Source of the DNA: Cordylochernes scorpioides
Lineage: Eukaryota; Arthropoda; Arachnida; Pseudoscorpiones; Chernetidae
Reading direction: 5' to 3'
Length of the DNA stretch: 64,000 nucleotides
Assembly: GCA_030710605.1 (NCBI GenBank)
Contig: CP092864.1
Location: 145,637,261-145,701,260 of the forward strand
Part shown: in pieces, positions 1,258 through 63,905 of the stretch
How positions within the stretch are numbered: position 1 is the first letter of the stretch
Layout: every line of letters begins with the position of its first letter
Translations under genes and position numbers: made by a program
The notes under the pieces: model-generated
Databases searched by the model: none
The model's input: the letters and a program-made list of their open reading frames with translations, nothing else
What the model was told of the DNA's origin: nothing

Positions 1258-1301
1258 GTTTACCTGTAGAAGGGTCGTTTAAAACCCGAAAATTTGTAAA
1301 C
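1258..1301 (+). ncRNA. Hammerhead-like fold F2 (variant core)
   Basis: Helix I GTTTAC (1258-1263) pairs perfectly with GTAAAC (1296-1301). Between them lie a box-1-like CTGTAGA, helix II closed by GGGT/ACCC, GAAA (1288-1291), the self-complementary AATT and a T in the cleavage position. Only box 1 departs from the canonical CUGANGA (A6 is U), so activity is doubtful although all helices are retained. AATAAA follows at about 1315. Confidence 0.5.
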
Positions 1302-1346
1302 TCGTTAATAGTGTAATAAAGAAAACCTCAGAGATTTATATTTGAT

Positions 1347-2070
1347 TATTCTAATTGATACAGAGGATGTTAATTCTAATAGAGAAAAAGAACTAATAAT
1401 ATTGTAAAGATTCAAAAGATACCCATCTTTTTCTTTGAACGCCTAATCCTTTATGGATCACAATATATAGAAAGATTAAATTCAACGGATACAAAAAGAG
1501 ATCACAGGGAAAGAAAGTAGAAAATATTTGGAATAGAAAGTATATATATATTTTAATAAATATCTAAGTCCAAATATATTCGCCATAAAACAACCACAGC
1601 TTTGATAGTTTTGATCATTTTTTGAGGAGGCCTATTTTGGCAGGCTTCCGTCTTGGAGGTTCTCCAGAGATCAATGATCTCATGGGACAACGTTTAGAAA
1701 CCATCTCAGTGAATTCAGCTTAATCCATTCCATAATGGTCAAAGAATTCGTTCATTCTTGATGTAAACATAGAAATCCCATTGGGCAGTTCTTAGAGGAT
1801 CTTTAAGGTCTTTTGATATAGAGTATAGACGATACTTCAGTTCCAGAAGCAATAGATAAACAGAGAGGCTCTGATGCTGGTATATAAGATGGCTGAAACA
1901 TTGATGAAACTGAGCAAATGCAGAATAACCTGAAAATGAAAATGCTTCTAACTTTATTAACATCTTATAACACGATATCCCAAATTCAGGGATATATACG
2001 TCATTTATTTACATCATTACAAATTGGCTATATACAAGGAGAAAGGAGAAAAAAGACAAACACACAAAAG
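1347..2070. other. AT-rich, no gene recognised
   Basis: Short open frames on both strands show no family motif. The interval may contain unrecognised old repeats. Nothing functional can be supported. Confidence 0.5.
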
Positions 2071-2074
2071 CAAT

Positions 2075-2175
2075 TCTTCGAATTAAAGATACTTCTGCCA
2101 GTAAATCCTTTCAATTGTCTCAACGTTTCGACAAAAATATTTCGTCCTCGTCAGTAGCGAACAAAAATTAAAACA
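2075..2175 (-). repeat. Foldback repeat family G, copy 2
   Basis: This is a shorter relative of the 23.3-kb element. The words AAAGATACTTC and CAGTAAAT mark the arm, and a hammerhead-like fold sits in the centre on the minus strand. The second arm is missing, so the copy is truncated. Confidence 0.6.
2113..2169 (-). ncRNA. Type I hammerhead motif G2
   Basis: On the minus strand the order is helix I (TTTTTGTTCGCTA), CTGACGA, a 7-bp helix II (GACGAAA/TTTTGTC with one G-U pair, loop TAT), GAAA, self-complementary ACGT with U in the cleavage position, then GAGACAAT as the other helix I strand. The first helix I pair is an A-G mismatch and the outer pairs form. Against copy G1 the helix II differs by changes that keep pairing (A-U to G-U). 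Confidence 0.6.
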
Positions 2176-2287
2176 TTTTGGCAAAGTGATTCTCCCAAAA
2201 TTTCCTTCCATCTTTTTCCCAGTTGAAAATATAGTTGTATATATATCTACAAAATATGAATTTTTACAGTTTTTTTTTTTCAGATTT

Positions 2288-2458
2288 TTATAATGTCTAA
2301 TTTATCACTGATAATGAAAATTTTGGGAAATATTTGGCAACTATCGGCGTGGTGAAGGAACCTGGATGCTTCTGCGGAGGAGAAATTCAAGACTCGAAAC
2401 ATCTACTTCTGGAATGCCCAATTTTTCGAGATTATAGGGAAAGAAAGTCACAATAGTT
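2288..2458 (+). pseudogene. Non-LTR retrotransposon C-terminal relic
   Basis: Translated from about 2288 the frame reads FITDNENFGKYL, then GVVKEPGCFCG, ending KHLLLECPIFRDYRE. The spacing CxC-x8-H-x4-C matches the zinc-knuckle-like C-terminus after the RNase H or RT domain in I/Jockey-type LINE proteins. It contains an in-frame stop and lacks RT and RNase H domains. A homologous piece lies on the minus strand at 4515-4790. Confidence 0.6.
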
Positions 2459-2469
2459 TGCACCAATAA

Positions 2470-4180: not shown

Positions 4181-4189
4181 ATTATCCTT

Positions 4190-4310
4190 TTTTTTAAGAG
4201 AAAGAGACAATTTTGTTTACACTTGATTATCTCTTGTATTTTCAATAAAGGGCATCTTTCTGATTTATTGTCTGAATCCCGATATACATTTTTATATTAT
4301 TTGACATATC
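4190..4310 (+). mobile_element. Partial TA-flanked MITE (76-bp family)
   Basis: The segment has internal MITE words (AGAGACAATTTTG, TTTTCAATAAAG, ATTGTCTGAATCCCG) but lacks both terminal inverted repeats. Compare the complete copy at 18499-18702. Confidence 0.6.
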
Positions 4311-4514
4311 GGACGCGATATCCGAGCTTGGGATACTTGCGCCTAAATATATTTTAGCAACCTATATACAATTCATTTTATATACAATTCATTAACCAGA
4401 CTAAAACCAACATTAAAACTGAAAGGTTGGTTTTCTTAAACAGAAAAGAAAGTCTAAAATGAATTTACAAAAATTATTGAATTTTACATAGGTGTCTTTG
4501 TTATATACAAATTC

Positions 4515-4790: not shown

Positions 4791-4796
4791 AGTACA

Positions 4797-4842
4797 AAAT
4801 GCTAAAAGGTACAACTTCCTTAAGTTGTGACAATGAGTGTAT
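4797..4842 (+). mobile_element. MITE end fragment
   Basis: The sequence GCTAAAAGGTACAACTTCC continues into TTAAGTTGTGACAATGAGTG, the right end of the 76-bp-family MITE. It abuts the LINE relic directly. Confidence 0.65.
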
Positions 4843-5128
4843 ATCGAATATTACATTATCACTTAGTAAATTAGGAAAAATAAACTTCAATTTCACAAGA
4901 AGGTTTATTTTGAAACAAAAGCAACTAAACATGGTTTATAAAAATTACCTAAAAGGACACAAGTTTCAGAGTAAACACAGAAAGATATCGTTGAGTGGTT
5001 TTTATTCCTTAGCCTTAAAAAAGAGAGAAAAAAGTTTTATTTTTCAATCAACATAAATTATATAATTTTTCCTTCCAGAAATACATTCGAATATTTAGTT
5101 AAAAAAAACAGTTAGTTATTTTTAATGG

Positions 5129-5275: not shown

Positions 5276-5279
5276 AGAA

Positions 5280-6180
5280 ATTTTTTAATTTTGAAAAGAA
5301 TTATAAGTGTCTATAATGGTATCGAACTATAGCCTATATTTGTACGAGTATATAATGCACATATTAGCAGTCAAACTATGCCTTTTTAATTTTGAAATAT
5401 ATTTTTTTATGTGTCAAATGGAGACAAAAATATGCACTAAGTAAATTAGATGTAGATGAGTATTCAATAAAATAATATCTTGTATCAAAATTAAGTAAAA
5501 TTAATAAGGTTCAAGTGTCTTTTCTTTCCTGATAAAACACTGGAGGTGACGCTATGAGTTCTTTAATGGTTCTCGAATATAATCCTATGTTTTGGAGTAA
5601 CATCCTTGCCTTCTACTCCTCAACACAGAAACTCCGCCTTTGCCGGTCTCAAGCCCGGATGAAAAAGGAGGAGGGGGAGCATTGAAAGCTCACTAAAAAA
5701 CCTGGGCTCAGCTGGCCATGCTGATAGTATCCTGTAAGGACTCCTAATCCAGGGATACAGGATGAGTAGCGTTTGTACTCCATGTTAGGAGCGGCTGTAC
5801 ATGGTGTCTGTTCCTCATGTCAGAGGCGGCCATTTCTTTTGCAGCTAAGTCGGCCTGCCACTGAGTAGTGCTCCCAGTCTTAATGACAAAGGCAGACACA
5901 TTCTACTCCACCCAGTCATGATGGTTGTCAAACAGACACCATCAAGGGTCACAACTTGATACCCTAATATGTTTGAGTGGAGATAAGAATGAAAAAGAAG
6001 ACTCCTCTACAGTATATATTGAGCTTCCTCTATTACTTTTGTTGAAAACGGATTTTTGACAGGGTCCTTAATTCTTAAAGATGGGGGGGGGATAAAGTTC
6101 ACCTCTTCGAAATAAATTATAGACAAAATTTGAAGAAGTTTTATATTTTAATGTCGCTATTTGTCTATCTTTTAAAGGAG
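5280..6180. other. Unassigned, GC-richer centre
   Basis: About 5530-6010 is GC-richer and includes a stretch around GGTCTCAAGCCCGGATG that resembles 5' parts of non-LTR elements, but I find no RT motif. A run of nine G lies near 6083. No feature can be supported firmly. Confidence 0.3.
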
Positions 6181-6184
6181 ATAG

Positions 6185-7232
6185 AGGCAATTATGTTTAC
6201 ATTTGTTTATCTAGTGTGTCTTCAATAAAGGTCACTGTAATATCTTTCAAAACTATTGTTTGAATTTCGATATACATGTTAAAAAGTAAAACTTCCTTAA
6301 GTTTTGTCCATGAGTGTATCTTTCAGAGTTATTGTCCGAATACCGATATAAATGCTAAAAAGTAAAAATTCCTTAAGTTTTTTCGATAAATGTATATTTC
6401 AGAGTTATTATCTGAATCCCGATATACATGATAAAAGGTACAACTTCTTTAAGTATTATCCATGAGTGTATCTTTCAGAGTTATTGTCTGAATCCAGATA
6501 TACATGATAAAAAGTACAACTTCTTTAAGTATTGTCCATGAGTGTGTCTTTCAGAGTTATTGTCCGAATCCCGATATACATGCTAAAAGGTACAACTTCC
6601 TTAAGTTTTGTCCATGAATGTATCTTTCACAGTTATTGTCTGAATCCCGATATACATGCTAAAAGGTTCAACTTCCTTAAGTTTTGTCCATGAATGTATC
6701 TTTCAGAGTTATTGTCCGAATCCCGATATACCTGCTAAAAGGTACAACTTCCTTAAGTTTTGTCCATGAATGTATCTTTCAGAGTTATTGTCTGAATCCC
6801 GATATACATGCTAAAAGGTACAACTTCCCTAAGTTTTTCCATTAATGTATCTTTCAGAGTTATTGTCCGAATCCCGATATACATGCTAAAAGGTACAACT
6901 TCCTTAAGGTTTGTCCATGGATGTATCTTTCAGAGTTATTGTCTGAATCCCGATATACATGCTAAAAGGTACAACTTCCTTAAGTTTGTCCATGAATGTA
7001 TCTTTCAGAGTTATTGTTTGAATCCTTATATACATGCTAAAAGGTACAACTTCCTTAAGTTTGTCCATGAATGTATCTTTCAGAGTTATTGTCTGAATCC
7101 TGATATACATGCTAAAAGGTACAACTTCCTTAAGTTTGTCCATGAGTGTATCTTTCAGAGTTATTGTCTGAATCCTGATATACATGCTAAAAGGTACAAC
7201 TTCCTTAAGTTTTGTCCATGAGTGTATGTAAA
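6185..7232. repeat. 76-bp satellite derived from a MITE end
   Basis: About thirteen head-to-tail units of ~76 bp run through the interval. Each contains TTTCAGAGTTATTGTC, TGAATCCCGATATACATGC, TAAAAGGTACAACTTCC and TTAAGTTTTGTCCATGAG. The first unit is preceded by the internal MITE part (AGAGGCAATT, TTTTCAATAAAGG) at 6185-6240. The array therefore reads as one MITE whose right ~76 bp was amplified. Central units are nearly identical and outer units more diverged. Long open frames on both strands (6808-7221 plus, 6904-7185 minus) are by-products of the period and not genes. Confidence 0.9.
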
Positions 7233-7239
7233 TATAGAT

Positions 7240-15476: not shown

Positions 15477-16072
15477 GAAGCTTCCAGGGTTAAGTTTCTT
15501 TTTCAACTTTTTAATATCAAGATTTCGGACTTGTATATAATTTGTAAATAAAAATAGTGAAAATTAGAAACTATTTTAGACGCGTATGATTCTTTTTGAA
15601 AATAAAACAATTTATACTGCCTTTACTTCAATGGAAAAATTATTGGGAGGGCCTGGCTCATCAGTGGTGAACCCTCCCAGCGGTTTCGCCAGTTTAATCT
15701 ACCATACCGCTATTATATTGCATTTTCGATCTTCCTTTTATAGTGATACTGATGCTAGATTCTTGGAATGGGTATTTTAGATTAACTATGGACATAAGCT
15801 TTGAGGACAGTAGAATTACATACAATTATAAATATATAATATGCTTCGAGGAATCGTTCTTCCGCAAATATCAAATTGAGTCTTTTTTCAAAAAGAATCT
15901 TACGCGTCTAAAATAGTTTCTAATGGGGCGCTAGTGCATCGTAATATAGAAAAAGTATTTATCATCAATTTATTAACGTGATACCTCTGTTGAAGAACTG
16001 ACAAGTCCGAAATCTTGAAAATAAAAAGTTGAACAAGAAACTTAACCTTGGAAGCTTTATTTACTTTATAAT
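15477..16072. repeat. Foldback F1 enclosing a family B element
   Basis: Outer arms (15477-15545 and 15985-16072) are inverted copies sharing GAAGCTTCCAGGGTTAAG-like, AACTTTTTA and GATTTCGGACTTG words. Inside, a family B element spans about 15566-15945 with its own inverted ends (AGAAACTATTTTAGACGCGT mirrored at 15895-15925) and the GC-rich TTGGGAGGGCCTGGCTCATC core. This is a nested insertion or a composite foldback. Confidence 0.65.
15984..16022 (+). ncRNA. Hammerhead-like fold F1b (variant core)
   Basis: CTGTTGA (15987-15993), helix II GAAC-TGACAA-GTCC with one mismatch, GAAA at 16009-16012, then TCTTGAAAATA. It is a degenerate relative of the 8.2-kb copy and probably inactive. Confidence 0.35.
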
Positions 16073-23284: not shown

Positions 23285-23472
23285 GAGGCTGCCTAGCCGG
23301 CATTCATAGTTCTTAAAATTAAAGATACTTCGGCCAGTAAATCTATAATTTTTAACGCTTTGCCAAATGTTTCAATTTTTGTTCGCTCCTGACGAGGACA
23401 AAAGATTTTGTCGAAACGTCGAGACAATAAAAAATATTTACTAGCCGAAGTGTCTTTTATTTGAAGAATTTA
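23285..23472. repeat. Foldback repeat family G, copy 1
   Basis: Arms AAAGATACTTCGGCCAGTAA (23322) and TTACTAGCCGAAGTGTCTTT (23437) are inverted. The hammerhead motif G1 occupies the centre. GAGGCTGCC and GCCGGCATTCATAG flank it here and near 42720, showing that the family extends beyond the arms. Non-coding. Confidence 0.75.
23374..23435 (+). ncRNA. Type I hammerhead ribozyme motif G1, canonical core
   Basis: All core parts are present and in order: CTGACGA (23389-23395); helix II GACAAAA (23397-23403) paired with TTTTGTC (23406-23412); GAAA (23413-23416); self-complementary ACGT as the minimal helix III (23416-23419); and C23420 completing a GUC cleavage triplet. Helix I pairs CTC with GAG next to the core. 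After a two-base internal loop on each side, ATTTTTGTT pairs with AACAATAAAAAT-like sequence (eight pairs). An internal loop in helix I is typical of natural, loop-loop-stabilised hammerheads. Predicted cleavage is after 23420. Confidence 0.75.
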
Positions 23473-23689
23473 GTTTTTATATTTAAGTAAATTGGTTCAA
23501 ATATTATCACTTGCTTTTAATTATAATTTTTCTCATTATATAAATTTTAACTTATCTAATTATAATTGAGCATTTTAACAAGGCTTAAAACTATCTGTTT
23601 TCTAGACCCATTATATAGAAATTGCTCATTTCTAGTAGTTCGAAAAAGGCCTCAACTCTAAAGGTTTTGAAAAAAGAAATGGGCATCTC

Positions 23690-24122
23690 CTTATCGTGTA
23701 ACTGAAAGTTGCTGATGTCTAGCGCCATCTATCGGAATAAATATCAATTATAATAAATTTTTAATTATATCATAATTGGCCAAATACCTATTCTTGATTA
23801 ATCAAGAAAAGCTAATCATGTAGACGTTTCGGGCAGTTGGCCCTGATCAGCGTGGTGCAAGGTGTACCTCAACAACCACAAAACTGTTCATTCAGGCATC
23901 CTGAAAAACCATGAAACGGGTAGTTAAGGTCCGAATTTTGTGATTCCTATTCCTAGAATAATTAAAAAATCAACGAATTGTTGATATTTATTCCGATTGA
24001 TGATGCCAGTCATCAGTAACCTTCAGTTGAACGATAAGGAGATGCCTTTTCTTTTTTTCATAATGTATGCACCTTATCCCAGTATAATATCACTTTGTAC
24101 TATTTTTCTAAAGGTTTTGTTG
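23690..24122. repeat. Foldback repeat family E, copy 1
   Basis: The left arm (GGCATCTCCTTATCGTGTAA, GCGCCATCTATCGGAATAAA) is mirrored at 23980-24045 (TTATTCCGAT, AACGATAAGGAGATGCC). The centre (about 23815-23870, minus) carries a hammerhead-like fold with box 1 CTGATCA, helix II GGGC-CAACT-GCCC and GAAACGTC. The G8-to-C change in box 1 predicts loss of cleavage. Confidence 0.7.
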
Positions 24123-27174: not shown

Positions 27175-27548
27175 TATATGTTATAAATAAAGATGAATGA
27201 GATTTTCTGTTGATTTTAGATCATGTTGAAGATTGTGGTAATGCAGCCGTGGTTGAAATCTTTAAAGTATGATAATGAAAAATGGTTTTGATCAGTAATT
27301 TAATTGATTTAAAGGAATATATAAAAATAAAAACAATTTGATAAAAGTAATGCCTGGCTTAAGGCGAGTAGAATAAGGATAACCAAAGATTATTTACATA
27401 ATGTACAAAAGGTTTGAGATGGCCATTGGGATAAAACAACAACGAGTTTTTATATGGGAAGAGTGACCTCTGAGGGTCGATTTAGCAGAATATTTGAATC
27501 CATGAAAATATGATTTTAAATAAAATAATATTTTTATATAACATATAT
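27175..27548 (+). mobile_element. MITE-like family C, copy 4
   Basis: It runs from TATATATGTTATAAATAAAG to TATATAACATATATATATG, showing inverted TA-rich ends. Internal blocks are GCAGCCGTGG, CTGCCTGGCTTAAGGCGAGT and TACATAATGTACAAAAGG. Confidence 0.75.
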
Positions 27549-27620
27549 ATATGATAAATCCCAATTTGGATTATAGATTATAAACACAAGGTAATAAGAC
27601 CTAATCTAAATAATTTAATA

Positions 27621-27666
27621 GTGTATGACGTTTCGGTAACAGCATTGTTACCATCATCAGACATAA
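27621..27666 (-). ncRNA. Type I hammerhead motif F8a, canonical core
   Basis: The minus strand reads CTGATGA, helix II GGTAAC-AATGCT-GTTACC (6 bp), GAAA, self-complementary ACGT, C (triplet GUC), then ATACAC. Helix I next to the core is TGT/ATA (with one G-U pair). The inverted copy F8b (27841-27880) has the same core but a damaged helix II. Confidence 0.6.
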
Positions 27667-27701
27667 GATTACATTACATTACCAAACAATAACATTTAAG
27701 G

Positions 27702-27739
27702 GCTCCTGTAGAAGGGCCGGTCAGCCCGAAAGCTTGAGC
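27702..27739 (+). ncRNA. Hammerhead-like fold F3 (variant core)
   Basis: Helix I GCTC (27702-27705) pairs with GAGC (27736-27739). Box 1 is CTGTAGA, helix II is GGGC-CGGTCA-GCCC, GAAA lies at 27728-27731, and AGCT plus T follows. AATAAA comes 10 bp downstream. A6 of box 1 is replaced by U. Confidence 0.5.
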
Positions 27740-27840
27740 GATTTAAAATAAAGCTTCCTACAAAAGACACTCGTCCCATGATTCTCGTATTTGTTTTCTA
27801 ACTGTATTGAATGGGATTCCAGTACTTATAATTTATTCTT

Positions 27841-27880
27841 TTGTCTGATGATGATAACAATGTTTCCGAAACGTCACACA
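27841..27880 (+). ncRNA. Hammerhead-like motif F8b
   Basis: CTGATGA (27845-27851), GAAA (27868-27871), ACGT and a GUC triplet ending at 27875. Helix I TGT/ACA forms. Helix II is weakened (GATAAC against GTTTCC). This is the partner of F8a in the same foldback. Confidence 0.5.
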
Positions 27881-27963
27881 CTATTAAATTATTTGGATTA
27901 GGTCTTATTTTATTGTATCTATAATTTATAATCAAAATTGTGCTTTATATATATATATTTTTT

Positions 27964-28345
27964 TTTTTTTGGTCGCAGTGGTACACTCTACTCCACGCTG
28001 ACGAGCGCCAACAGCGCGAAACGCGTTCGTGGATGATTTATCAAGAAATTGGGTTGGCCAAATATCACGGAGCAAGCTAAATAAACGCTTACTTTATTTT
28101 TTCTCGCGCTCTGCCATCTAAAAAGCACATGTGCTCGTGGTCAGGAGATGCCTTCTTTATTTTTAATATCAACACCTGTGATGATGTTGATATTAAAAAA
28201 TAAAGAAGGCGTCTCCTGACCACGAGCATATGTGCTTTTTAGATGGTAGATCAACTAAACCTTGATTCAGCCTGTTCGCTGATATTTAGCCACCCCATCA
28301 GGGAACTGGCTAAATCAACGCTTAGTTGATTTCTGTTCCACTAGA
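27964..28345 (+). repeat. Family A repeat, copy 1, with inverted partial copy
   Basis: A family A copy in hammerhead-sense orientation reads GGTCGCAGTGG, the ribozyme motif, ATTTATCAAGAAATTGGGTT, GGCCAAATATCACGGAGC and GTGCTCGTGGTCAGGAGATG. It is followed from 28186 by an inverted partial copy (AAAGAAGGCGTCTCCTGACC), so 28135-28235 is a hairpin. Partial inverted duplications are typical of Penelope-like insertions; here that is an inference. Confidence 0.75.
27992..28033 (+). ncRNA. Type I hammerhead motif A1, canonical core
   Basis: Helix I TCCACG (27992-27997) pairs with CGTGGA (28028-28033). CTGACGA lies at 27998-28004, helix II is GCGC-CAACA-GCGC, GAAA spans 28018-28021, and the palindrome ACGCGT is the minimal helix III. 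T28027 gives a GUU cleavage triplet. The outer helix I block seen in copies A6 and A8 (AGCC/GGCT) is lost here. Confidence 0.7.
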
Positions 28346-33863: not shown

Positions 33864-33950
33864 TATATAAAAGTCAGTATGTATATATTTCGTATTGTAT
33901 AGGTTGTATCACTATAAAAACCTAAATAATTGCAATCAGTAATTTAAGGA

Positions 33951-34128
33951 AGAAAAAATTTTTTTGCAACAAGTTTCTTTTATTCTGCAATTTGGCAAGC
34001 TTTCAGTCGTTAGCCTATCATCAGGCCGATTTCGCAAATATATATTTGCGAAATCGGCCTGATGATAGGCTAACGCCTGAAAGCTTGCCAAATTGCAGAA
34101 TAAAAGAAACTTGTTGCAAAAAAATTTT
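33951..34128. repeat. F5 foldback, ~89-bp arms without spacer
   Basis: TTTTTGCAACAAGTTTCTTT at the left mirrors AAAGAAACTTGTTGCAAAAA at the right, and the arms meet at TTTGCGAAAT-type sequence around 34040. I see one mismatch between arms, at the base that breaks helix II of the left hammerhead. Confidence 0.85.
34048..34097 (+). ncRNA. Type I hammerhead motif F5, canonical core
   Basis: CTGATGA (34059-34065), helix II AGGC-TAAC-GCCT, GAAA (34079-34082), self-complementary AGCT, T34086 in the cleavage position (CUU triplet). Helix I is GGC/GCC next to the core, then A+T pairs and a distal GC/GC around internal loops (GCGAAATCGGC against GCCAAATTGC). AATAAA follows at about 34100. The mirrored copy on the minus strand (about 33983-34032) has one mismatch in helix II. 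Confidence 0.65.
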
Positions 34129-34178
34129 TTCTTCTTTAAAATATATGTTGTATGTTGTATATAAAATCAAGATTATAT

Positions 34179-35659: not shown

Positions 35660-36722
35660 TATTTTAGATAGAATAACGATAAGTCATGCCTTCTATTAAA
35701 TGGCTTAAACTTAAATTATGAATAAAGGCATCTCCCTTATCGTACAACTGAAAGCTTCTGATGGCTTGCGCAATCTATCGGAATAAATATCAACTATTCT
35801 CGTTGATTTTTAATTATTCAAGAATTGGCCAAATACCCATTCTTGATTAATCAAGAAAAACTAACCACAATTTTTCACATTAAACTTTAATGTTTCTTTT
35901 GAACATTTCATTAACAATTATCCTTTGACTCAGAATTAGAGAAGAGAATAAAAGGTTAAGTTACGTTTTCAATAGAGATTTTTAGTTGAAGATTAAGTAA
36001 TGCTTTCTACTTAAATGGCTTAAACTTAAATGTTTCATTAGGTCATTTTATTAACAACTATCCTTTCGACTTATAAATAAAGATGAAAAGGTTAGGTTAC
36101 GTTTTAAATAGAGATTTTTAGTTGAAAATTAAGTGATGACTTCTATTAATTAGCTTAAACTTAAATGTTTCTTTAGGTCATTTTATCAACAACTATCCTT
36201 TTGACTTAAAAATATAACAGAGAAGGTTAGGTTACGTTTTCAATAGAGATTTTATTTGAAGATTAAATGATGCTTTCTATTAAATGGCTTAAACTTGATT
36301 GTTTCTTCTGATAATTTCATTAACAAATATCCTTTGACTTAAAAATATAGAAGAGAATAAAAGATTATGTTAGGTTTTGAATAGAGATTTTTAGTTGAAG
36401 ATTAAGTGATGACTTCTATTAATTGGCTTAAACTTAAATGTTTCTTTTGAAAATTTCATTGACATATATCCCTTGACTTAAAAATAGAACAGAGAAGGTT
36501 AGGTTACAATTTAAATAATGAATTTTAGTTGAAGAATAAGTTATGCTTTCTATTAAATGGCTTAAACTTGAATATTTCTTTTGATCATTTCATTAGCAAC
36601 CATCATTTTGACTTAGATATAGAGAAGAGAGGTTACGTTATGGTTTGGTAGGTTACGTTACGGAGATAAGAGGTTAGGTTACGTTTTGGATAAAGGTTTT
36701 TAGTTGAACATTAAATGTTCGA
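35660..36722. repeat. ~135-bp tandem repeat with GGTTAGGTTACG
   Basis: About seven units, each with TTCTATTAAATGGCTTAAAC, TTAAATGTTTCTTTTG, TTCATTAACAACTATCCTTT, GACTTAAAAATA and AGAGAAGGTTAGGTTACGTT. The first unit is split by a family E insertion. Near 36640-36690 the GGTTACGTTA motif is itself repeated. AGGTTAGGTTA words are frequent in insect genomes; no telomere function is implied. Confidence 0.8.
35717..35879 (+). repeat. Family E, copy 3, truncated, with target duplication
   Basis: The 163-bp insertion includes AAGGCATCTCCCTTATCGTA and GGAATAAATATCAACTATTC. It is flanked by TTAAACTTAAAT (35705-35716) and TTAAACTTTAAT (35880-35891), a 12-bp duplication with one mismatch. It stops at ATCAAGAAAAACTAACCAC, just before the ribozyme. 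Confidence 0.7.
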
Positions 36723-40738: not shown

Positions 40739-41360
40739 ATGAAAAAACAATAGAAAAAAATAAAAGATAAGTGGGTCAGGTGTTGATATTAAAAATAAAA
40801 AAGGCATCTCCTGACCACGAGCAGATGTGCTTTTCAGATGGCAGAGCGCCATCTAGTGGAGCAAAATAAACTAAACGTTTATTTAACTTACTCCCTGATA
40901 TTTGGCCAACCCCATTTCTTGATTTATCAAGAAAAGCCATCCACGAACGCGTTACGCGCTGTTGGCGCTCGTCAGCGTGGAAAAGGCTGTAACCACTGCG
41001 ACCAAAAAATAATTTTGGTCCCAATGGCTTCCCGAGAAATCAGAAAATGGGTATTTAAGGCCAAATTTGCGTAAAGACGCTTAACACATGAAAAAACAAT
41101 AGAAAAAAAAAAAGATTTCTGATTTCTCGGGAAGCCATTGGGACCAACATTATTTTTTGGTCGCAGTGGTTACAGCCTTCTCCACGCTGACGAGCGCCAA
41201 CAGCGCTTTTCTTGATAAATCAAGAAATTGGGTTGGCCAAATATCACAGAGTAAGCTAAATAAACGTTTAGTTTATTTTTGCTCCACTAGATGGCGCTCT
41301 GCCATCTAAAAAGCACATGTGCTCGTGGTCAGGAGATGCCCTTTTTATTTTTAATATACT
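40739..41360. repeat. Family A inverted pair (copies 3 and 4)
   Basis: Left copy (minus sense) 40739-41100, right copy (plus sense) 41105-41350. The left copy begins with its own tail (ATGAAAAAACAATAGAAAAA, GTGGGTCAGGTGTTGATATT) directly joined to the head (AAAGGCATCTCCTGACC), i.e. a head-to-tail junction. Its ribozyme (40940-40981, minus) has GAAA changed to GTAA. The right copy lacks everything from GAAA through the distal helix I strand. Both are predicted inactive. Confidence 0.75.
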
Positions 41361-45027: not shown

Positions 45028-46440
45028 CACTGCGTGACATTGAAAATGGAACACCAAGAAATAGTGGCCAGAAAGTGATGAAACTCGGCAGACAGAGAGA
45101 GACAGGGACGAACAATAAGTGATCTTTATTTCAAAATGATAGTCATAATACAGAGCGAGAACGGCGTCGGCTTAGTAGCAAGTAGGACCACCGCGGACGG
45201 CGATGCACGCAGCAACACGTCTAGGTAGAGAGTCAATCAGAGTACGGATGGCGTCCTGAGGGATGGCTCTCCATTCCCTCTCAACCATTTGCCACAGTTC
45301 GTCTTCTGAACGCGGCTGTGGCAAGGCATGCAAACGGCGTCCAATGATGTCCCAGACGTGCTCGATTGGTGAGAGATCAGGAGAGTACGGTGGCCAGGGA
45401 AGCATCTGTACATCTTGCAGAGCTTGTTGGCTAATGCGAGCAGTGTGCGGTCTGGCGTTATCCTGCTGATAAAGGGCATTGGGTACCCCCTGAAGGTAGG
45501 GGAGTGTCACCGGTCGCAGCACATCATCAACGTAAAGTGTCATAGTACCCTGAATACGAAGTAAAGGTGACCTGGAATCATACGCGATTGCGCCCCAAAC
45601 CATGATTCCACGTTGTCGCACGGTGGGGCGTTCCACAATTGCTGCCGGATTGGACCTTTCTCCACGTCGACGCCACACGCGTACACGGCGACTATCACTG
45701 GACAAGCAGAAACGCGACTCATCTGAGAACACGACCCTGTGCCATTCCGTCATTCACGTCGATCTAGCCCGGCACCATTCCAAACGTTGGCGCCTATTCG
45801 GTGGGGTCAATGGCAGTCTTCTTAGCGGACGGCCTGAGTGCAAGCCATTAGCAACCAATCGACGGGAAATGGTTCTGGTCGAGATGGAATGATCTAGGGT
45901 GTCTTGCACATGTTGCAGGATGGCGGTACAAGTGGCTTGTGGGGCCGCCACTGCTTGTCGAAGGATACGCCGATCCACACGTGCTGACGTCACTCTGGTT
46001 GCACCGACATTCCTATAAATTGCCACATTTCCTTGTTCCAACCATCTTCTCCACAGTCGGTGCACCGTGGACGCACCAAGGTGTGTATCAGCTGCGATTT
46101 GACGTATGGACCAACCTGCCCTTTTCAGTCCGATCACCATGCCCCTCGTAAAAGCGTCTGTCTGCTTGAACTGCCTCCGTTTACGATGACCTGGCATTCT
46201 CTGTTATTACACGTGTCTTTTGACACAAGAATAAAATTTCTACAATGATTTTCCTTGAAGAAATAACGACACGAATACTGTCCTTTCTGCAAGTTCCTTC
46301 CCTTATATATTACTCCATGTGCGCACGAGAGCTGCGCATTTTACATCATTTGCATAACTCGGTTAGGCGCGTCTACCCTGAAATTCGCATAATTTTCTGG
46401 CCACTATTTCTTGGTGTTCCATTTTCAATGTCACGCAGTG
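45028..46440 (-). mobile_element. Tc1-like transposon, 1413 bp, nearly intact
   Basis: Perfect 47-bp inverted ends (start CACTGCGTGACATTGAAAAT; 45028-45074 and 46394-46440) are flanked by TA on both sides (45026-45027, 46441-46442). This is the target and size of the Tc1 group. The transposase lies inside on the minus strand. Identical ends and one coding lesion imply a recent insertion. Confidence 0.93.
45172..46197 (-). pseudogene. Tc1-type transposase with one in-frame stop
   Basis: The frame opens at ATG 46195-46197 (MPGHRKRRQFKQ) and would give 341 codons, normal for Tc1. A TGA at 45754-45756 splits it into 147 and 193 residues in the same frame. Residues ~15-60 (FTRGMVIGLKRAGWSIRQIA) form the first helix-turn-helix and ~75-130 the second. 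Catalytic residues are D159 (FSDESRF), D246 (YQQDNARPHTAR) and E279 (SPDLSPIEHVWD), followed by a C-terminal tail RGGPTCY. D246 and E279 have 32 residues between them, two fewer than the classic DD34E spacing. The stop lies just before the catalytic domain, so the element is now probably inactive unless the stop is read through. The plus-strand open frames over it are shadows. Confidence 0.93.
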
Positions 46441-48379: not shown

Positions 48380-49345
48380 ATCAATACACTCATGGACAAA
48401 ACTTGAGAAAGTAGAAAATCCTTGTTGTCCCTTTCGTCTATTATTGAAGGAGACAGAGGCAATTTTGTTCATACTTGGTTATCTTGTGTGTTTTCAATAA
48501 ATATTGCAGCGAAGTATCATTATTTTATATAAGTATTTATTATTTAACACGTGTATTAACAGAGTATCATTTTTTATGTTTATATTTTACTACTCTGTAA
48601 ACTTCCCTCATTCCTTATTTTTTGTTTACCATTCATAGTTTGTTCTTGCTTTAAATAAATTGCTGTTTCATCCTGAAGTTTTTGTCTTCCCTAATTTTCC
48701 ACGTCGCAATATCATTGTATAACAAATAACTTTGATAGTTATTGTCTGAATACCGATATACATGCTAAAAGGTACAACTTGCTTAAGTTTTGTTCATGAG
48801 TGTATCTTTCAGAGTTATTGTCTGAATCCCGATAAACATGCTAAAAGATAAAACATCCTTAGGTTTTGTCAATGAGTGTATCTTTCAGAGTTATTGTCTG
48901 AATCCCGATAAACATGCTAAAAGGTACAACATCCTTAGGTTTTGTCCATGAGTGTATCTTTCAGAGTTATTGTCTTAATCCCGATAAACATGCTAAAAGA
49001 TAAAACTTCCTTAGGTTTTGTCCATGAGTGTATCTTTCAGAGTTATTGTCTGAATCCCAATATACATGCTAAAAGGTACATCTTTCTTAAGTTTTGTCCA
49101 TGAGTGTATCTTTCAGAGTTATTGTCTGAATCCCGATAAACATGCTAAAAGGTACAACATCCTTAGGTTTTGTCCATGAGTGTATCTTTCAGAGTTATTG
49201 TCTTAATCCCGATAAACATGCTAAAAGATAAAACTTCCTTAGGTTTTGTCCATGAGTGTATCTTTCAGAGTTATTGTCTGAATCCCAATATACATGCTAA
49301 AAGGTACATCTTTCTTAAGTTTTGTCCATGAGTGTATATCAAACC
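48380..49345. repeat. MITE and second 76-bp satellite array
   Basis: It starts with the MITE left end (ACACTCATGGACAAAACTTG, 48386) and internal part (GGAGACAGAGGCAATTTTG, TTTTCAATAAA), interrupted at 48499-48717 by repeat I. About eight 76-bp units follow to 49338 (TTTCAGAGTTATTGTCTGAA, TCCCGATAAACATGCTAAAA, TAGGTTTTGTCCATGAGTG). A two- to three-unit higher-order pattern (GATAAACATG / CAATATACATG types) repeats at 48880-49320. Confidence 0.85.
48499..48717. mobile_element. Repeat I, internally deleted copy in MITE
   Basis: It starts ATATTGCAGCGAAGTATC and ends AATTTTCCACGTCGCAATAT (short inverted ATATTGC ends). The ends match those of the 11348-12487 copy while ~900 bp of its middle is missing. 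The insertion lies within the MITE, which defines its boundaries. Confidence 0.6.
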
Positions 49346-50370: not shown

Positions 50371-50374
50371 CTTA

Positions 50375-50580
50375 TGAAAAAATAATATTAAAAAATAAAA
50401 GATAATGGGTCAGGTGTTGATATTTAATATAAAGAAGGCATTTCCTGACCAAGAGCATATGTGCCAAATATCACGGAGCAAGTTAAATAAACGTTCAGTT
50501 TATTTTTGCTCCACTAGATGGCGTTCTGCCATCTAAAAAGCACATGTGCTCGTGGTCAGGAAATGCCTTCTTTATCTTTC
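50375..50580. repeat. Family A copy with tail-head junction, centre deleted
   Basis: A tail (TATGAAAAAATAATATTAAA, TGGGTCAGGTGTTGATATTT) is joined to a head (AAAGAAGGCATTTCCTGACC), then an inverted remainder CATCTAAAAAGCACATGTGC follows. The ribozyme is absent. Confidence 0.65.
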
Positions 50581-51685: not shown

Positions 51686-51734
51686 GATATTAACGGAAGA
51701 GCGATTGCTAAAAGCATATTATATATTTATAATT

Positions 51735-51900
51735 AAACATAAAGAAGGCATTTCCTGACCACGAGCACATGTGCTTTTTAGATGGCAGATCACCATCTAG
51801 TGGAGCAAATATAAACTAAACATGTGCTCGTGGTCAGTAAATGACTTCTTTAATTTTATATCAACACCTGACCAACTTATCTTTTTTTTCTATTGTTTTT
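51735..51900. repeat. Family A palindrome, centre deleted
   Basis: AAAGAAGGCATTTCCTGACC and the inverse GTGCTCGTGGTCAGTAAATG flank GATGGCAGATCACCATCTAG. It ends with an inverted tail (CAACACCTGACC, CTATTGTTTTTTCAT). Confidence 0.65.
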
Positions 51901-52079
51901 TCATATTTATAATTGTATGTATTATTACTGTCCTCAAAGCTTATTTCCATAGCTCATCTACCTTGTTACCATGAAAATTTCGATGTTGTGATGTACATTA
52001 ATATGAGTTTTGACTGTATATAAAAGAGAAATTTTTTTAATAAAAATATTTTTCTCAACACTGAGAAATATGAAGATTC

Positions 52080-54553: not shown

Positions 54554-54910
54554 TTGATATTAAAAATAAAGAAGGCATCTTCTGACCACGAGCACATGTG
54601 CTTTTTAGATGGCAGAGCGCCATCTAGTGGAGTAAAAATAAACTAAACGTTTATTTATCTTGCTCCGAGATATTTGGCCAACCCAATTTCTTGATAAACC
54701 AAGCCATCCACGAACGCGTTTCGCGCTGTTGGCGCTCGTCAGCGTGGAGAAGGCTGTAACCACTGCGACCAAAAGATTTTTGGTCCCAATGGCTTCCCGA
54801 AAATCAAGAAATGGGTATTTAAGGCCAAATTTGCGTAAAGACGCTTAAAACATGAAAAACAATAGAAAAAATAAAATATAAGTGGGTCGGGTGTTGATAT
54901 TAAAAATAAA
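54554..54910 (-). repeat. Family A, complete copy 6
   Basis: It is bounded by direct copies of TTGATATTAAAAATAAA (54554-54570, 54894-54910). Order on the plus strand: GAAGGCATCT, GAGCACATGTGCTTTTTAGA, GGCAGAGCGCCATCTAGTGG, ribozyme (antisense), CAGTGG inverse, ATTTTTGGTCCCAATGGC, GGGTATTTAAGGCC and CAATAGAAAAAATAAA. The unit is ~340 bp and non-coding. It is the best reference copy of family A. Confidence 0.8.
54702..54755 (-). ncRNA. Type I hammerhead motif A6, canonical core
   Basis: The minus strand reads AGCC-TTC-TCCACG, CTGACGA, GCGC-CAACA-GCGC, GAAA, palindromic ACGCGT, T (GUU triplet), CGTGGA-T-GGCT. Helix I thus has 6 bp next to the core, an internal loop and 4 more bp, the usual shape of natural type I hammerheads. 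Copy A8 is identical in this region. Confidence 0.75.
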
Positions 54911-58015: not shown

Positions 58016-58019
58016 AATG

Positions 58020-59115: not shown

Positions 59116-59159
59116 AGGCAGATAACCATTATATAAATATACACATATATATTTTAATA

Positions 59160-59455
59160 TTATGGTAGGCATATGGAGCCTACCAGGAGGACATGAGCTT
59201 TTTAGATCTCAGAACGCCATCTAGTAGAACATAAATCAACTAAACGTTGATTCAACCTGTTCCCTGATATTTGGCCAATCCATTTTCTTGATAAATCAAG
59301 AAAAGTCATCCACGAACGCGTTTCGCGCTGTTGGCGCTATTCAGCATGGAGCAGGCTTTACCACTGCGACCAAAACTACTTTTGGTCCTTGAGGCTTCTT
59401 GAGAAACCAAGAAATGTCTATAAAAGGTCAAACTTGCGTAAACACGCTATACATA
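59160..59455 (-). repeat. Family A, copy 7
   Basis: CAGAACGCCATCTAGTAGAA, GATATTTGGCCAATCCATTT, ACGAACGCGTTTCGCGCTGT and CTTTTGGTCCTTGAGGC. The ribozyme (59309-59352, minus) has box 1 changed to CTGAATA; the rest of the core is kept. Confidence 0.7.
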
Positions 59456-59459
59456 TTAT

Positions 59460-59812: not shown

Positions 59813-59814
59813 AA

Positions 59815-60125: not shown

Positions 60126-60164
60126 TATATATAGACTATATAGAAATTATATTAATTTAAAAAA

Positions 60165-61165
60165 TATATATATTGGTTGGTAATTCGATAGAGTTCTAGA
60201 ATTAGTACTTGCTGATTGATATAGAAAATTATTGATCATTTATCTTGTAATCCATGAGTATGTGATGTTGCAGTAGTGGTAGAAATAATAAAACTTTTCA
60301 ATCATTAATACAATATAATGCGGCTTATATGATTGTAGAACGAAGTTTGAAAATTATACCGCAAATGTTTCTTTTGAACGAAAAATTGAAATTTATTTTA
60401 AGGAGAAATAACGATTTGGAATGGAATTCCCATCCCTGGACACTTCATTTTTCCGTTCATCATTACTCTTCACAATTTATCCTTTCATAATTCATCCCTT
60501 AAGTTAGAAATAATCGTTATTTCTCCTTAAAATAAATTTCGATTTTTCGTTTAAAAGAAAGATTTGCGGTATAGTTGTCAAACATCGTTCTACAATCATA
60601 TAAGCCGCATTATATTGTATTATAAATTACTTTATATAATATTTACGAACGGAAAAATACGTCCAGGGTAGCCTAGTGGACAAGGCAAAAGCGGTAAGCG
60701 GAAAACTGTGGGTTTGATTCCCATCCCTGAACACTTTTTTTTTTCCGTTCATCATTGCCCTTCACAATTCATTCTTTCATACTTCATCCCTTAAGTTAGA
60801 AATAACCGTTATTTATCCCCCCCCCCCCCCCTCAAAATAAATTTCGAATTTTCGTTTAAAAGAAACATTTGCGGGATAATTGTCAAATTTGCTTAATCAT
60901 TATTTGCTAGTTTGTTTTAATTAAGCTTATAAAACACAAAATAAATCATTTAAGAAAGTTTTGCCTTATTTAAGGCGTAAAATGAAGAAAACAAAAGATT
61001 TATTTACATAATTACAAAAGGTTTGAGCCGGCCAACGGGAAACAACAACAATATGTTTATATAGGGAAAGCCGCGACATCTGGCGGTCAACTTAACAGAG
61101 TATTTTATTGTAGAAATTTTAATTTTAAAAATATTATTATCTTTATATAACATATATATATATAT
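60165..61165 (+). mobile_element. MITE-like family C, copy 8, interrupted
   Basis: The left part 60165-60303 (ATGTTGCAGTAGTGGTAGAA) and right part 60895-61165 (TTGCCTTATTTAAGGCGTAA, AGGTTTGAGCCGGCCAACGG, ATCTGGCGGTCAACTTAACA) are separated by a SINE2 cluster. Confidence 0.65.
60305..60893. mobile_element. SINE2 cluster: inverted fragment plus two copies
   Basis: 60305-60415 is an inverted tail. 60430-60620 is a plus-strand body from the B box (CCCATCCCTGGACACTTC) to the end GCCGCATTATATTGTATT. 60656-60893 is a copy with complete tRNA-like head (GTCCAGGGTAGCCTAGTGGA, CTGTGGGTTTGATTCCCATC) and body. A C16 run at 60814 replaces part of TTATTTCTCC. Confidence 0.7.
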
Positions 61166-61596
61166 AATAAAGAAGGCATCTCTTGACCACGAGCACATGC
61201 GCTTTTTAGGTGGCAGAGCGCCATCTAGTGGAGCAACAATAAACTAAACGTTTATTTAGCTTGCTCCGTGATATTTGGCCAACCCAATTTCTTGATAAAT
61301 CAAGCCATCCACGAACGCGTTTCGCGCTGTTGGCGCTCGTCAGCGTGGAGAAGGCTGTAACCACTGCGACCAAAAAGATTTTTGGTCCCAATGGCTTCCC
61401 GAAAAATCAAGAAATGGGTATTTAAGGCCAAATTTGCGTAAATACGCTTAACACATGAAAAACAATAGAAAAAATAATGGCAGAGCACCATCTAAAAAGC
61501 ACATGTGCTCGTGGTCAGGAAATGACTTCTTTATTTTTAATATCAACACCTGACCCACTTATCTTTTATTTTTTTCTATTGTTTTTTTCATATATA
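61165..61596 (-). repeat. Family A, copy 8, with inverted partial copy
   Basis: AAGAAGGCATCTCTTGACC, TAGTGGAGCAACAATAAACT, the ribozyme antisense, GGTCCCAATGGCTTCCCG and AACAATAGAAAAAATAATGG. An inverted end then follows (AAGCACATGTGCTCGTGGTC, CAACACCTGACCCACTTATC, CTATTGTTTTTTTCAT). Confidence 0.75.
61303..61356 (-). ncRNA. Type I hammerhead motif A8, canonical core
   Basis: Same as A6: helix I TCCACG/CGTGGA plus AGCC/GGCT, box 1 CTGACGA, helix II GCGC/GCGC, GAAA, ACGCGT and a GUU triplet. Identity to a copy 6.6 kb away in both paired strands suggests recent mobility. Confidence 0.75.
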
Positions 61597-61599
61597 TAT

Positions 61600-62090
61600 A
61601 TATAGAATTATATATCAAGAAAATCCAATAAAATTAACAGAAGATTGGACCTCTTATCTAGAAATCTATGAACTACATTTTTCCACAGAACTCAAGTCCA
61701 ATTTACCCTTATAAAAAATCATTTCCAAAAATCTACAATGAAAACAGGACATGCTCTCAATGTGGAAAGAATATCAGACACAATGCACTATATAAAAACA
61801 ATAGAAAAATAAATAAATAAAATGGTCAGATGTTAATATTAAAAATAAAAAAGACATCCTGATCAGGAGCACATCTAAAAAGCACGTATGCTCTCAGGAT
61901 ATGTCTTTTTTTTATTTTTTACTATCCACAATATGAGAAATATAACTTCAAAGAGACAAAACTATTTTCTTGAAGGTTGTGCCGTCAGGAGAAATCAAAT
62001 TTCAAACAAAGCTAAAAAAAATCTGTTTTTTATTTTGAATTCAATTTCAACATATTCATCCTCTTTAGAAGTCCTTTTAGCCAGAAAGCT
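61600..62090. other. Unassigned, with a family A fragment
   Basis: 61790-61915 contains family A ends (AAAAACAATAGAAAAATAAA, GATCAGGAGCACATCTAAAA). 61660-61780 and 61920-62090 contain weak, frameshifted protein-like stretches (TGCTCTCAATGTGGAAAG would be CSQCGK-like) that may be retroelement remains; not named. Confidence 0.35.
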
Positions 62091-62095
62091 AGAAA

Positions 62096-63217
62096 TCTAT
62101 ATATATATAAAAATGAATGTCTGTGTGTCTGTCTGTCTGTGTGTGTGTCCTCTATGGATTCAAAAACCATACATCCAATCGCCGTGAAATTTCGGGATAT
62201 TATTAGGCATATCCCCGGGAAGGTTTACGAAAAATAATATCTTGAATATCTTTAATATCCTTAGAGTTATCTGCAGATTTGTAGCTTTAACTCGCAAGCA
62301 GCGCCACCATTGAGACGGAGATAGGCTTTTTCAAGAGGGGGAGTAATGTTAGGAGAGAGGAGCGCGGCTCGAGGCGGGTGCTCACGTGTCACTGTTAAAA
62401 ACCTATTTGTTTTGGCTACATCTTTTCCCGTGGACTTAACGATAACTTTTCTAAAACTTATTTCAAATTTCATGTATAATTATTTTTACATCATTTAGTT
62501 TAGTATAATTATTTACTATAATTTCCTATCGTTCAATTATTATACTTTTTGTTCTTAAAGATTATTTAAGACAATAATCTTTAATATTAGAAAGTGCTTT
62601 GCCAAAAGTTTGGAGTGGGGCAGACCCCGTGCGAGAATGGATTCGCCCGGCCGCCGGCCGACAGTCAAAGTACCCACCGACCAATCAGGGCAGAGTTGGT
62701 GACACAGCTATGCCAAGTAGACAAGAAAAAAAGCCTCGCGGGAGCTTGCCCAAGATGACCTCCGGGAACTTCGTCCATCTTCCATAAACGACCATGAATT
62801 TATTCAACCTTATCGAGTATTTTTCAAGGGACCGGGAAAAAATGTTCACTAGATAAAACGATGATTTTGTAATGTAGAAAATTAGGAAAGACAAAATTCA
62901 GAATGACACGGGACACAGGGACCGGGAAAAAAATGATCACTTTATCAGTTTCAAATTATCAAAATATATCTATTTCTTTTTATAAGTTTATAGAGAATTG
63001 TTTTAACAAATGTTCGTTAGACAGACCTTTACTCGGGTACCGATTAATATTGAATTTATTCAACTTATCGAGTATTTTTCAAGGGACCGGGAAAAAATGT
63101 TCACTTTATCGAGAGATTCGTTAGACAAACCTTTACTCGGGTAAAACACGGGCAAATGTTCGTTAGACAAACCTTTACTCGGGTAAAACCTCGGGCGAAG
63201 CCGGGTACGTCCGCTAG
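62096..63217 (+). mobile_element. Complete non-autonomous Helitron, 1122 bp
   Basis: It starts with TC (TCTATATATATATAAAAATG) after A62095 and ends CTAG before T63218, i.e. the A|T insertion and TC...CTRR ends of Helitrons. The subterminal GGGCGAAGCCGGGTACGTCC gives the 3' hairpin. Internal blocks include ATGGATTCAAAAACCATACA, a GC-rich region 62280-62400 and 62600-62780 (shared with 29030-29280), and tandem AAGGGACCGGGAAAAAATG and TTCGTTAGACAAACCTTTAC words at 62820-63180. No Rep/helicase coding. Confidence 0.8.
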
Positions 63218-63372
63218 TATTAAATATACTTTTAAAGGAACTTAATTCCAGGGTAAAGTTATTTTCTTTTCCAATATTATTGTTGTTGTCGTGTCCAATA
63301 AAGAGCCTCAGATTTCCTCACTTTTCTAATATTAAAACTAGAATATAACTTTAATATAGAATATAAACAATG

Positions 63373-63905
63373 CAAAAAGGTTAGGAAAAGGGCATCTCCT
63401 TATCGTGAAACTGAAAGTTGCTGATGGCTTGCGCCATCTATCGGAATAAATATTAACTATTCTCATTGATTTTTAATTATTCCAGAATTGGCCAAATACC
63501 CATTCTTGATTAATCAAGAAAAGGTTACCACGGACGCGTTTCGGGCTGTTGGCATTCAGCGTAGCGTTTTCACGCAATTCTGGCCTTACCTACCCGTTTC
63601 ATGATTTTTTTCAGGATGCCTTAATAACCAATTTTTTGGTCGTTGAGGTACAGTTTGTACCACGCTGATGAGGGCCAACAGCCCGAAACGCGTCCGTGAT
63701 TAGCTTTTCTTGAATAATTAAGAATGCGTATTTGGCCAATTCTGGAATAATTAAAAATCAACGAGAATCGTTGATATTTATTCCGATATATGGCGCAAGT
63801 CATCAGCAACTTTCAGTTGCACGATAAGGAGATGCCCTTTTCTCAATTTATGCACCTTATCCCAGTACAATATCACATTGTAATATTTTCTCACAATGCT
63901 AAAAG
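63373..63905. repeat. Foldback family E, complete copy 6
   Basis: The left arm (GGCATCTCCTTATCGTGAAA, GATGGCTTGCGCCATCTATC, ATTGGCCAAATACCCATTCT) is mirrored by the right (TATTTGGCCAATTCTGGAAT, GATATTTATTCCGATATATG, CAGTTGCACGATAAGGAGAT). Each arm carries a hammerhead-type segment: plus at 63657-63702 (intact core) and minus at about 63526-63570 (box 1 and helix II deleted). Outer word TGCACCTTATCCCAGTACAA at the right end. Confidence 0.8.
63657..63702 (+). ncRNA. Type I hammerhead motif E6, canonical core
   Basis: Helix I CACG/CGTG (63661-63664, 63695-63698), CTGATGA (63665-63671), helix II GGGC-CAACA-GCCC, GAAA (63685-63688), palindromic ACGCGT, and C63694 giving a GUC triplet. Predicted cleavage is after 63694. 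The opposite arm retains CGTGGTAACC downstream of the same core, which would extend helix I with the TACCACG strand, so the ancestral helix I was longer. Confidence 0.7.

Follow-up and report, generated by a model that had tools for sequence, protein, structure and literature searches.

A 64,000-nucleotide stretch of the Cordylochernes scorpioides genome (C2:145637261-145701260; hereafter the window) carries several groups of short repeats with a type I hammerhead ribozyme motif. We consider it probable, at roughly 0.78, that the window offers a cross-section of a mobile system with two tiers, in which autonomous Penelope-like elements (PLEs) live alongside non-coding retrozymes that would be copied by the PLE enzymes via ribozyme-made circles. 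The first tier comprises PLEs that encode a reverse transcriptase (RT) and a GIY-YIG endonuclease and contain a minimal type I hammerhead in their pseudo-long terminal repeat (pseudo-LTR). The second comprises non-coding type I hammerhead elements with units of 338 and 349 nt, together with a related small family with units of 92-108 nt. Retrozymes and PLEs share one insertion signature in the same genome, and the insertion ends also explain why one hammerhead plan is common to several unrelated short repeats of a single stretch. The ribozymes themselves are of known kinds; what is new is the PLE scar on retrozyme insertions, found in the same genome as the PLEs and accompanied by a start stem-loop that is laid out alike in both. 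A preliminary description of the window had suggested a diverse mobile system akin to Penelope pseudo-LTRs and animal retrozymes. Our data support this view, allow the retrozyme tandem arrays to be separated from the PLE genes with their minimal hammerheads, and add the insertion signature of the two kinds, which had escaped that description.

Two types of hammerhead core occur in the window

Both strands of the window were searched with one descriptor consisting of an exact CUGANGA box, zero or one extra nucleotide, a helix II of 4 bp or more, GAAA, 2-4 nt, U16.1, H17 and a helix I of 3 bp or more. It returned seven sites (23389+, 27998+, 34059+, 63665+, 61343-, 54742- and 27660-), compared with no match in a total of 40 second-order Markov shuffles of the window. 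These are precisely the seven cores that had been singled out beforehand as the best, and no other site was found. The type I order of CUGANGA, GAAA and UH with three helices is present in all seven. The single canonical architecture that had been proposed for them holds for 27998+, 54742-, 61343- and 63665+, which show the classical spacing, a 4-bp G/C helix II with the loop CAACA, and a helix III shrunk to A-CGCG-U. It does not hold for 23389+, 27660- and 34059+, in which one extra nucleotide, not noted in the preliminary description, separates CUGANGA from helix II, and whose helix III has a 2-nt loop (ACGU or AGCU). The four canonical cores belong to metazoan retrozymes, and the minimal cores with the extra nucleotide are of the type found at PLEs.

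When the extra nucleotide was disallowed, an exact-core scan found the four canonical cores, and 12 shuffles gave one match, in one shuffle. Allowing one core mismatch added 59315-59344(-) and a poor site at 15914-15968(-), with four matches in 12 shuffles. Rfam at E<=10 placed hammerheads at four positions, all of them retrozyme copies and all assigned to HH9, with 22-29 bits against a gathering score of 52 and E values of 0.003-0.5. The comparison with covariance models that the preliminary description had called for therefore came out divided, some families scoring above background and others giving no match. The gathering score is the detection threshold of one model and not a property of the ribozyme, and the silence of Rfam on some families may be due to their reduced helix III. 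Eleven families (A, E, F1-F8 and G) had originally been distinguished; we can vouch for five sequence groups, namely retrozyme G, retrozyme C, PLE-type A, the small family at 27540-27961 and the 34059 family, but not for eleven, the letters of the original families being undefined.

The genome search covered 2,619,359,433 bases in 24 contigs. Cores were counted as exact matches on both strands, with the same pattern read backwards as a control, and positions are known for the first 100 matches per pattern. The canonical core occurred 27,366 times (control, 0) and the 34059-type core 1,163 times (control, 0). For the minimal core ending GAAACGTC the numbers were 55,392 and 1,401, and for a pattern starting CTGANGAG, which mostly overlaps the minimal-core pattern, 13,061 and 26.

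The fold is supported by base pairing. Among 56 retrozyme hammerheads, 94.4% of the cells in a 16-pair structure can pair, a fraction that falls to 27-37% if the partner is slid by 1-3 columns. In an alignment of 48 sequences (43 of 51 distinct locus sequences plus five from the window; all 56 entered the paired fraction given above), 58 cells were changed on both sides versus 22.3 in shuffles, and none of 500 shuffles reached this value. Examples are UA/CG in 24/18 and GC/CG in 24/16 sequences. Compensatory changes were thus seen for the retrozyme cores, which are the cores that this analysis covered. Helix I of the retrozyme hammerheads consists of a 6-bp proximal and a 4-bp distal part with an internal loop between them.

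Canonical cores sit in tandemly arrayed non-coding units

The canonical cores lie in non-coding units of 338 or 349 nt with a GC content of 40-41%, which elsewhere in the genome form near-identical tandem arrays. At C1:5964900-5967700 (L001), five cores are spaced exactly 338 nt apart in 5.65 units of 99.8-99.9% identity within a TA repeat; three further loci (L002, L003 and L004) hold about two units each, that of L004 measuring 349 nt. Units G and C thereby agree with the published definition of retrozymes, in which every tandem repeat of 150-450 bp has a type I hammerhead. We saw no protein encoded by the retrozymes themselves, the short small-family stretches not having been searched for open reading frames (ORFs). 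A Pfam scan of the window ORFs of at least 120 aa revealed no RT, only Tc1/mariner-like fragments and weak matches.

The small family forms arrays with shorter periods. In locus L110, three 108-nt units that match at 99% are accompanied by a fourth in inverted orientation, and ACAGCTGTTGGTTG stands on either side; its tandem cores read CTGATGA in two of three cases and CTCATGA in the third. Locus L116 contains 3.2 units of 92 nt with three intact cores. In L111, which has 2.8 units of 152 nt, AAAA replaces GAAA in all three cores, so that these are probably inactive. The 92- and 108-nt arrays fall below the published retrozyme repeat size of 150-450 bp.

Minimal cores accompany PLE genes

In a search for GIY-YIG domains, 150 of 17,015 candidates were scored and 146 matches reported. 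Hammerhead cores were present in eight of ten long PLE regions and in three of ten short ones, and all 18 cores found in GIY-YIG loci had the extra nucleotide before helix II, even though the scan also allowed none. Nine PLE ORFs from loci L051-L060 were scored, that of L051 not being among them; RVT_1 and GIY-YIG were both present in seven, L052 had GIY-YIG only and L053 neither. L054 has one hammerhead just upstream of an open frame whose ATG lies at +82 and another 3' of the inverted ORF. Families A and A2 display the hallmarks of PLEs, that is, an inverted pseudo-LTR, a tail at one end and a target duplication. Helix II differs in sequence among the PLE loci (L051/L054, L055/L058, L057 and L060), which would account for the impression of unrelated families with one plan.

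Three further observations concern these elements. At C1:93585657-93592865, both arms of a head-to-head array carry cores of the 34059 type in direct pairs with a spacing of 2.74 kb, as would be expected of tandem PLE copies. Loci L036-L040 belong to a further family of minimal cores, CTGARGAGAGTG...GAAACGTC, in which helix II is likewise preceded by one extra nucleotide. L052 (C1:8984000-8993900) forms an almost perfect palindrome (8.9 kb at 96.7%) and has an 828-aa frame in which GIY-YIG is N-terminal; a strict scan found no hammerhead in it, and it may be a PLE with permuted domains, of the kind named Naiad.

Retrozyme and PLE insertions share two 3' ends and a pairing rule

Both kinds of element end at two alternative 3' positions about 36-47 nt apart. 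Retrozyme ends were numbered from the predicted cut site, using segments of at least 85% identity that did not lie at a locus edge. Among 103 such segments, 59 had a short end (G 145-160, C 156-170), 39 a long end (G 186-209, C 193-217) and five ended elsewhere. For PLE family A/A2, 29 of 61 segments ended at +72 to +89 (short) and 23 at +111 to +123 (long); of the nine other ends, two run on into the ORF.

The two ends are combined in a regular manner. We analysed 58 consecutive retrozyme loci, i.e., all canonical-core places listed up to C1:8361291, intact cores only, and found 36 single, 17 head-to-head, two tail-to-tail and three complex insertions. Of the head-to-head insertions in which both ends could be called, 13 of 15 joined a short to a long end. 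L009, with an end at 126, and L020, which is truncated at the edge of the locus, were not callable, the two tail-to-tail and three complex insertions (L005, L019 and L082) were excluded, L069, L016 and L091 were counted although one end lies at the edge of the range of its class, and L012, L061 and L062, with the same ends and length, are possibly duplicates of one insertion. In the window itself, four of five head-to-head retrozyme pairs were mixed (23674-24107, 40739-41357, 50374-50579 and 63371-63898); the fifth, at 51732-51921, has ends 159 and 224. PLE head-to-head insertions with both ends in the defined ranges were mixed in 17 of 17 cases. L035, L102 and L103 were left out of this count for an end outside the ranges (152, 131 and 126/71, respectively), each still having one longer and one shorter end, as was L054, in which one arm continues into the ORF. 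The PLE loci had been chosen partly for two nearby cores (L021-L035), by GIY-YIG (L041-L060) or as six of the next unpicked places (L101-L106).

Target duplications, where found, were mostly 10-17 bp long for both kinds; duplications of at least 10 bp flank 10 of 16 retrozyme and eight of 14 PLE head-to-head insertions. The mean duplication score of 57 retrozyme insertions was 5.3, versus 1.6 for mismatched flanks, with a search slack of 6 nt per edge and several of the duplications TA-rich. The flanks of these 57 insertions are 76% A+T, and the window itself is about 59-70% A+T per 4 kb.

Inverted arms and target duplications are also what miniature inverted-repeat transposable element (MITE)-like or foldback DNA transposons would leave, the hammerhead likeness then being a by-product of the hairpin. 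The duplications and the palindromes at 33940-34143 (97%), 27554-27948 (arms 27554-27656/27846-27948, 83% complementary, with descriptor and genome matches) and 63385-63842 (arms 63385-63558/63669-63842 of the 63371-63898 insertion, 92%) fit this explanation. We nevertheless regard it as very improbable, given that 36 of the 58 consecutive retrozyme insertions are in single orientation, that 5' ends vary across the unit while 3' ends fall at two points, that tandem arrays exist, and that base pairing is specific to the hammerhead register.

Alternatively, these could be ordinary retrozymes moved by a resident long interspersed nuclear element (LINE), for example an RTE-like lineage with a 5' twister, with only an accidental resemblance to PLEs. 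At 5625-5677 (+) of the window there is a truncated ribozyme resembling twister-P1 (38.3 bits; cut-off, 67.2), where it starts an element resembling a short interspersed nuclear element (SINE) with a GAAGAAG-like tail. The twister element is abundant (8,325 exact core matches versus 0 for the reversed control), reviews name LINEs as possible helpers (PMC11722881), and locus L109 contains two inverted copies of it, apparently inside a larger palindrome. However, four twister copies (two in L107, one in L108 and that at window position 5625) are single and end in a GAAGAAG-like tail, whereas the two ends of retrozymes are non-repetitive and their copies form head-to-head pairs, a contrast that is drawn from few copies. 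Moreover, twin priming by LINEs is not known to put the outer left end at one fixed start site. On balance, we judge a LINE helper to be improbable.

A stem-loop surrounds the inner 3' end

The inner (short) end is surrounded by a 7-bp stem with a loop of 25-31 nt, and the end lies 3-8 nt before the 3' strand of the stem. The stems are CTGGCCG/CGGCCAG in PLE A and A2, CCACGTT/AGCGTGG in L060, GATAAGG/CCTTATC in retrozyme G and GGTCAGG/CCTGACC in retrozyme C. In the five stem groups, 60, 41, 104, 81 and 82 of 2000 shuffles matched or beat the observed stem. In the small family, the short end likewise appears by eye to lie within the loop of a stem, TGGATTA/TAATCTA. Retrozymes G and C thus show the layout expected of PLE-mobilised elements in their two ends, pairing rule, duplication length and stem-loop, the test of the last being post hoc.

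Proposed cycle and its weighing

Based on these findings, we propose the following cycle. A transcript of at least two units would be cut by adjacent hammerheads, which can pair via the self-complementary ACGU or ACGCGU of helix III, and a host ligase would close the cut units into circles. The PLE protein, acting in trans, would bind the stem-loop within the circle, cut both DNA strands about 12 bp apart and prime cDNA from both DNA ends, using for each either of two start sites, of which the first lies in the loop of the 7-bp stem and the second 36-47 nt downstream. Reading around the circle would yield tandem units, and joining of the two cDNAs would yield a head-to-head copy with one short and one long end. 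The sequence itself shows the core with its helices, the tandem arrays, the PLE genes that carry the motif, the two 3' ends with the rule by which they pair, and the target duplications; from these, cleavage, RNA circles and the trans action of the PLE protein are deduced.

Several observations weigh against the two-tier reading. Concerning the ribozyme, helix I of the minimal cores is only 3 bp long and followed by a mismatch; no Rfam hammerhead model reached its gathering score in the window (best 29.3 bits versus 52), and even at E<=10 there was no hammerhead match for 63665 or for the three non-canonical cores, so that the minimal cores are missed. Only five pairs change on both sides in the retrozyme alignment, a number not above shuffles (95 of 500 reach five) because the changes mostly track the G/C subfamily split; the compensatory changes are few events that mostly reflect two subfamilies. 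Concerning the insertions, L017 (long/long) and L063 (short/short) break the pairing rule, and small-family pairs are mixed in only three of six cases, namely L110, L112 and L117 (those of L110 and L117 called by eye), both ends being long in L113, in L116 and in the copy of the window. The ranges of the stem search were set with the first families already in view, and two of the five groups, PLE A and A2, are relatives of each other; the stem tests are therefore neither blind nor fully independent. No sequence similarity between retrozymes and PLEs was seen beyond the stem-loop layout, and the retrozyme matches in L051, L055 and L044 fall outside the PLE insertions. Finally, retrozyme 5' ends are scattered with no excess at the predicted cut site (three of 103 within 4 nt), meaning that insertions carry no trace of cleavage, and published in vitro work on a PLE describes hammerhead cleavage as needing the PLE protein and as not required for insertion (PMC11167929).

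The 5' ends fit another explanation, according to which retrozymes derive from PLE pseudo-LTRs and are copied by the PLE protein with neither ribozyme action nor circular RNA, tandems arising from uncut multimers or template switching. The order of hammerhead, stem-loop and tail, common to retrozymes and PLEs, also speaks for it. Against this, the 27,366 exact canonical cores and the paired helix changes suggest that the fold is kept, and the exact periods of 338, 108 and 92 nt fit a circle; neither point is decisive, and we consider copying without circles unlikely.

Features of the window

The hammerhead-related features of the window are listed below. Other features include a 76-bp tandem repeat common to 6241-7227 and 48730-49337, about 42 kb apart; similar tRNA-like sequences at 1034-1106 (-) and 60662-60732 (+), perhaps from a tRNA-derived SINE; and Mariner/Tc1-like transposase fragments at 32827-33701 and 45172-46197 (-). 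A dispersed repeat, D17, with a GGGAGGG/CCCTCCC hairpin occurs at 5121, 15627, 26128, 31649, 41441, 51361, 55629 and 59910; it was dropped as a hammerhead candidate, its box reading CTGACTC/CTGGCTC. Rfam matches to miRNA and snoRNA in the window (E<=10) were taken as palindromes or chance.

Table 1. Hammerhead-related features of the window; numbers in parentheses after retrozyme ends are unit positions.
Feature	Position	Strand	Remarks
PLE-type family A fragment	2074..2176	-	hammerhead-like core 2154-2122 (the decayed copy of the next row); short 3' end
Decayed hammerhead copy	2154-2122	-	
PLE-type family A fragment	23348..23468	+	minimal hammerhead 23389; short 3' end; 85% to PLE locus L054; descriptor match
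Retrozyme G copy	23674..23943	-	decayed hammerhead core 23850-23821; left half, head-to-head; short end (150)
Right half of 23674-24107 pair	23946..24107	+	without ribozyme; long end (197)
Small minimal-hammerhead family, head-to-head pair	27540..27961		core 27660(-); copy with broken helix II 27845(+); both ends long
Retrozyme C copy	27966..28178	+	core from 27998; blast 89% to 349-nt unit; descriptor match
Palindrome, arms 97% complementary	33940..34143		PLE-type minimal hammerhead 34059(+); descriptor match
Retrozyme G fragment	35712..35868	-	unit 2 (beside predicted cleavage site) to 156 (short end)
Retrozyme C copy	40739..41116	-	decayed hammerhead 40926-40991(-), by Rfam HH9; left half, head-to-head; long end (208)
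Right half of 40739-41357 insertion	41115..41357	+	ribozyme partly missing; short end (161)
Head-to-head retrozyme C fragments	50374..50579		without ribozyme; long (208) and short (156) ends
Retrozyme C copy, 1.05 units	54554..54910	-	core from 54742; 94% to unit; descriptor match; HH9 28.1 bits
Retrozyme C copy, 82%	59151..59456	-	mutated core CTGAATA; includes the decayed copy of the next row
Decayed hammerhead copy	59344-59314	-	
Retrozyme C copy	61158..61474	-	core from 61343; 94% to unit; descriptor match; HH9 29.3 bits
Inverted left half of 63561..63898 insertion	63371..63567	-	short end (160)
Retrozyme G copy	63561..63898	+	core from 63665; 93% to 338-nt unit; descriptor match; right half of head-to-head insertion, long end (205)

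Comparison with known systems

Several hammerhead families per genome have already been published, with 16 described in a coral (PMC7229834). The view that everything seen here is already known, multi-family and PLE hammerheads both having been reported, was rejected: the shared insertion signature did not come up in searches confined to open-licence literature. Like the metazoan non-LTR retrozymes described in PMC7229834, the elements studied here have a type I hammerhead, tandem units (338/349 nt), a GC content of 40-41% and target duplications of more than 4 bp, and they share with the axolotl retrozymes of that account a very short helix III with a palindromic tetraloop. They differ from its description in that their insertions bear the two-end, head-to-head signature of PLEs. 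Published sizes are 150-450 bp for the repeats and about 170-400 nt for the circles (PMC7229834, PMC7761336, PMC11722881). In their passages on mobilisation, the same papers propose PLEs or LINEs as helpers without giving insertion evidence and leave the spreading enzyme open, PLEs being put forward as strong candidate helpers in PMC7229834.

The PLEs found here resemble those in published accounts in their RT and GIY-YIG gene with a hammerhead just before the ORF and in their inverted pseudo-LTR with a tail on one end (PMC11167929, PMC3846280, PMC7761336), and carry in addition the nucleotide before helix II. The hallmarks set out in PMC3846280, an inverted pseudo-LTR, a tail on one of the two and a 9-bp duplication, agree with our insertions. 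As described in PMC11167929, a PLE RT uses two adjacent start sites matching the tail, located in a stem-loop, and both strands of AT-rich targets are cut and extended. The twister at 5625-5677, which lies outside the hammerhead system and served as a contrast, fits the truncated twisters reported at RTE 5' ends (PMC7761336).

The insertion ends define a candidate RNA start site and offer a concrete, checkable answer on the enzyme that spreads retrozymes. In the partnership of SINEs and LINEs, a small non-coding element uses the RT of its partner by mimicking the RNA structure at which copying starts. We think it fairly likely that animal retrozymes relate to PLEs as SINEs do to LINEs, circles down to about 92 nt mimicking the PLE start stem-loop so that the PLE RT would copy them at two sites, with both strands primed. 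Should this hold, we would know in principle which helper metazoan retrozymes use, and units below the sizes given in the papers compared here would become accessible to testing. The arrangement would depart from that of SINEs and LINEs by relying on a PLE, by using a ribozyme-made circle as the template, and by having the RT prime both strands of the target.

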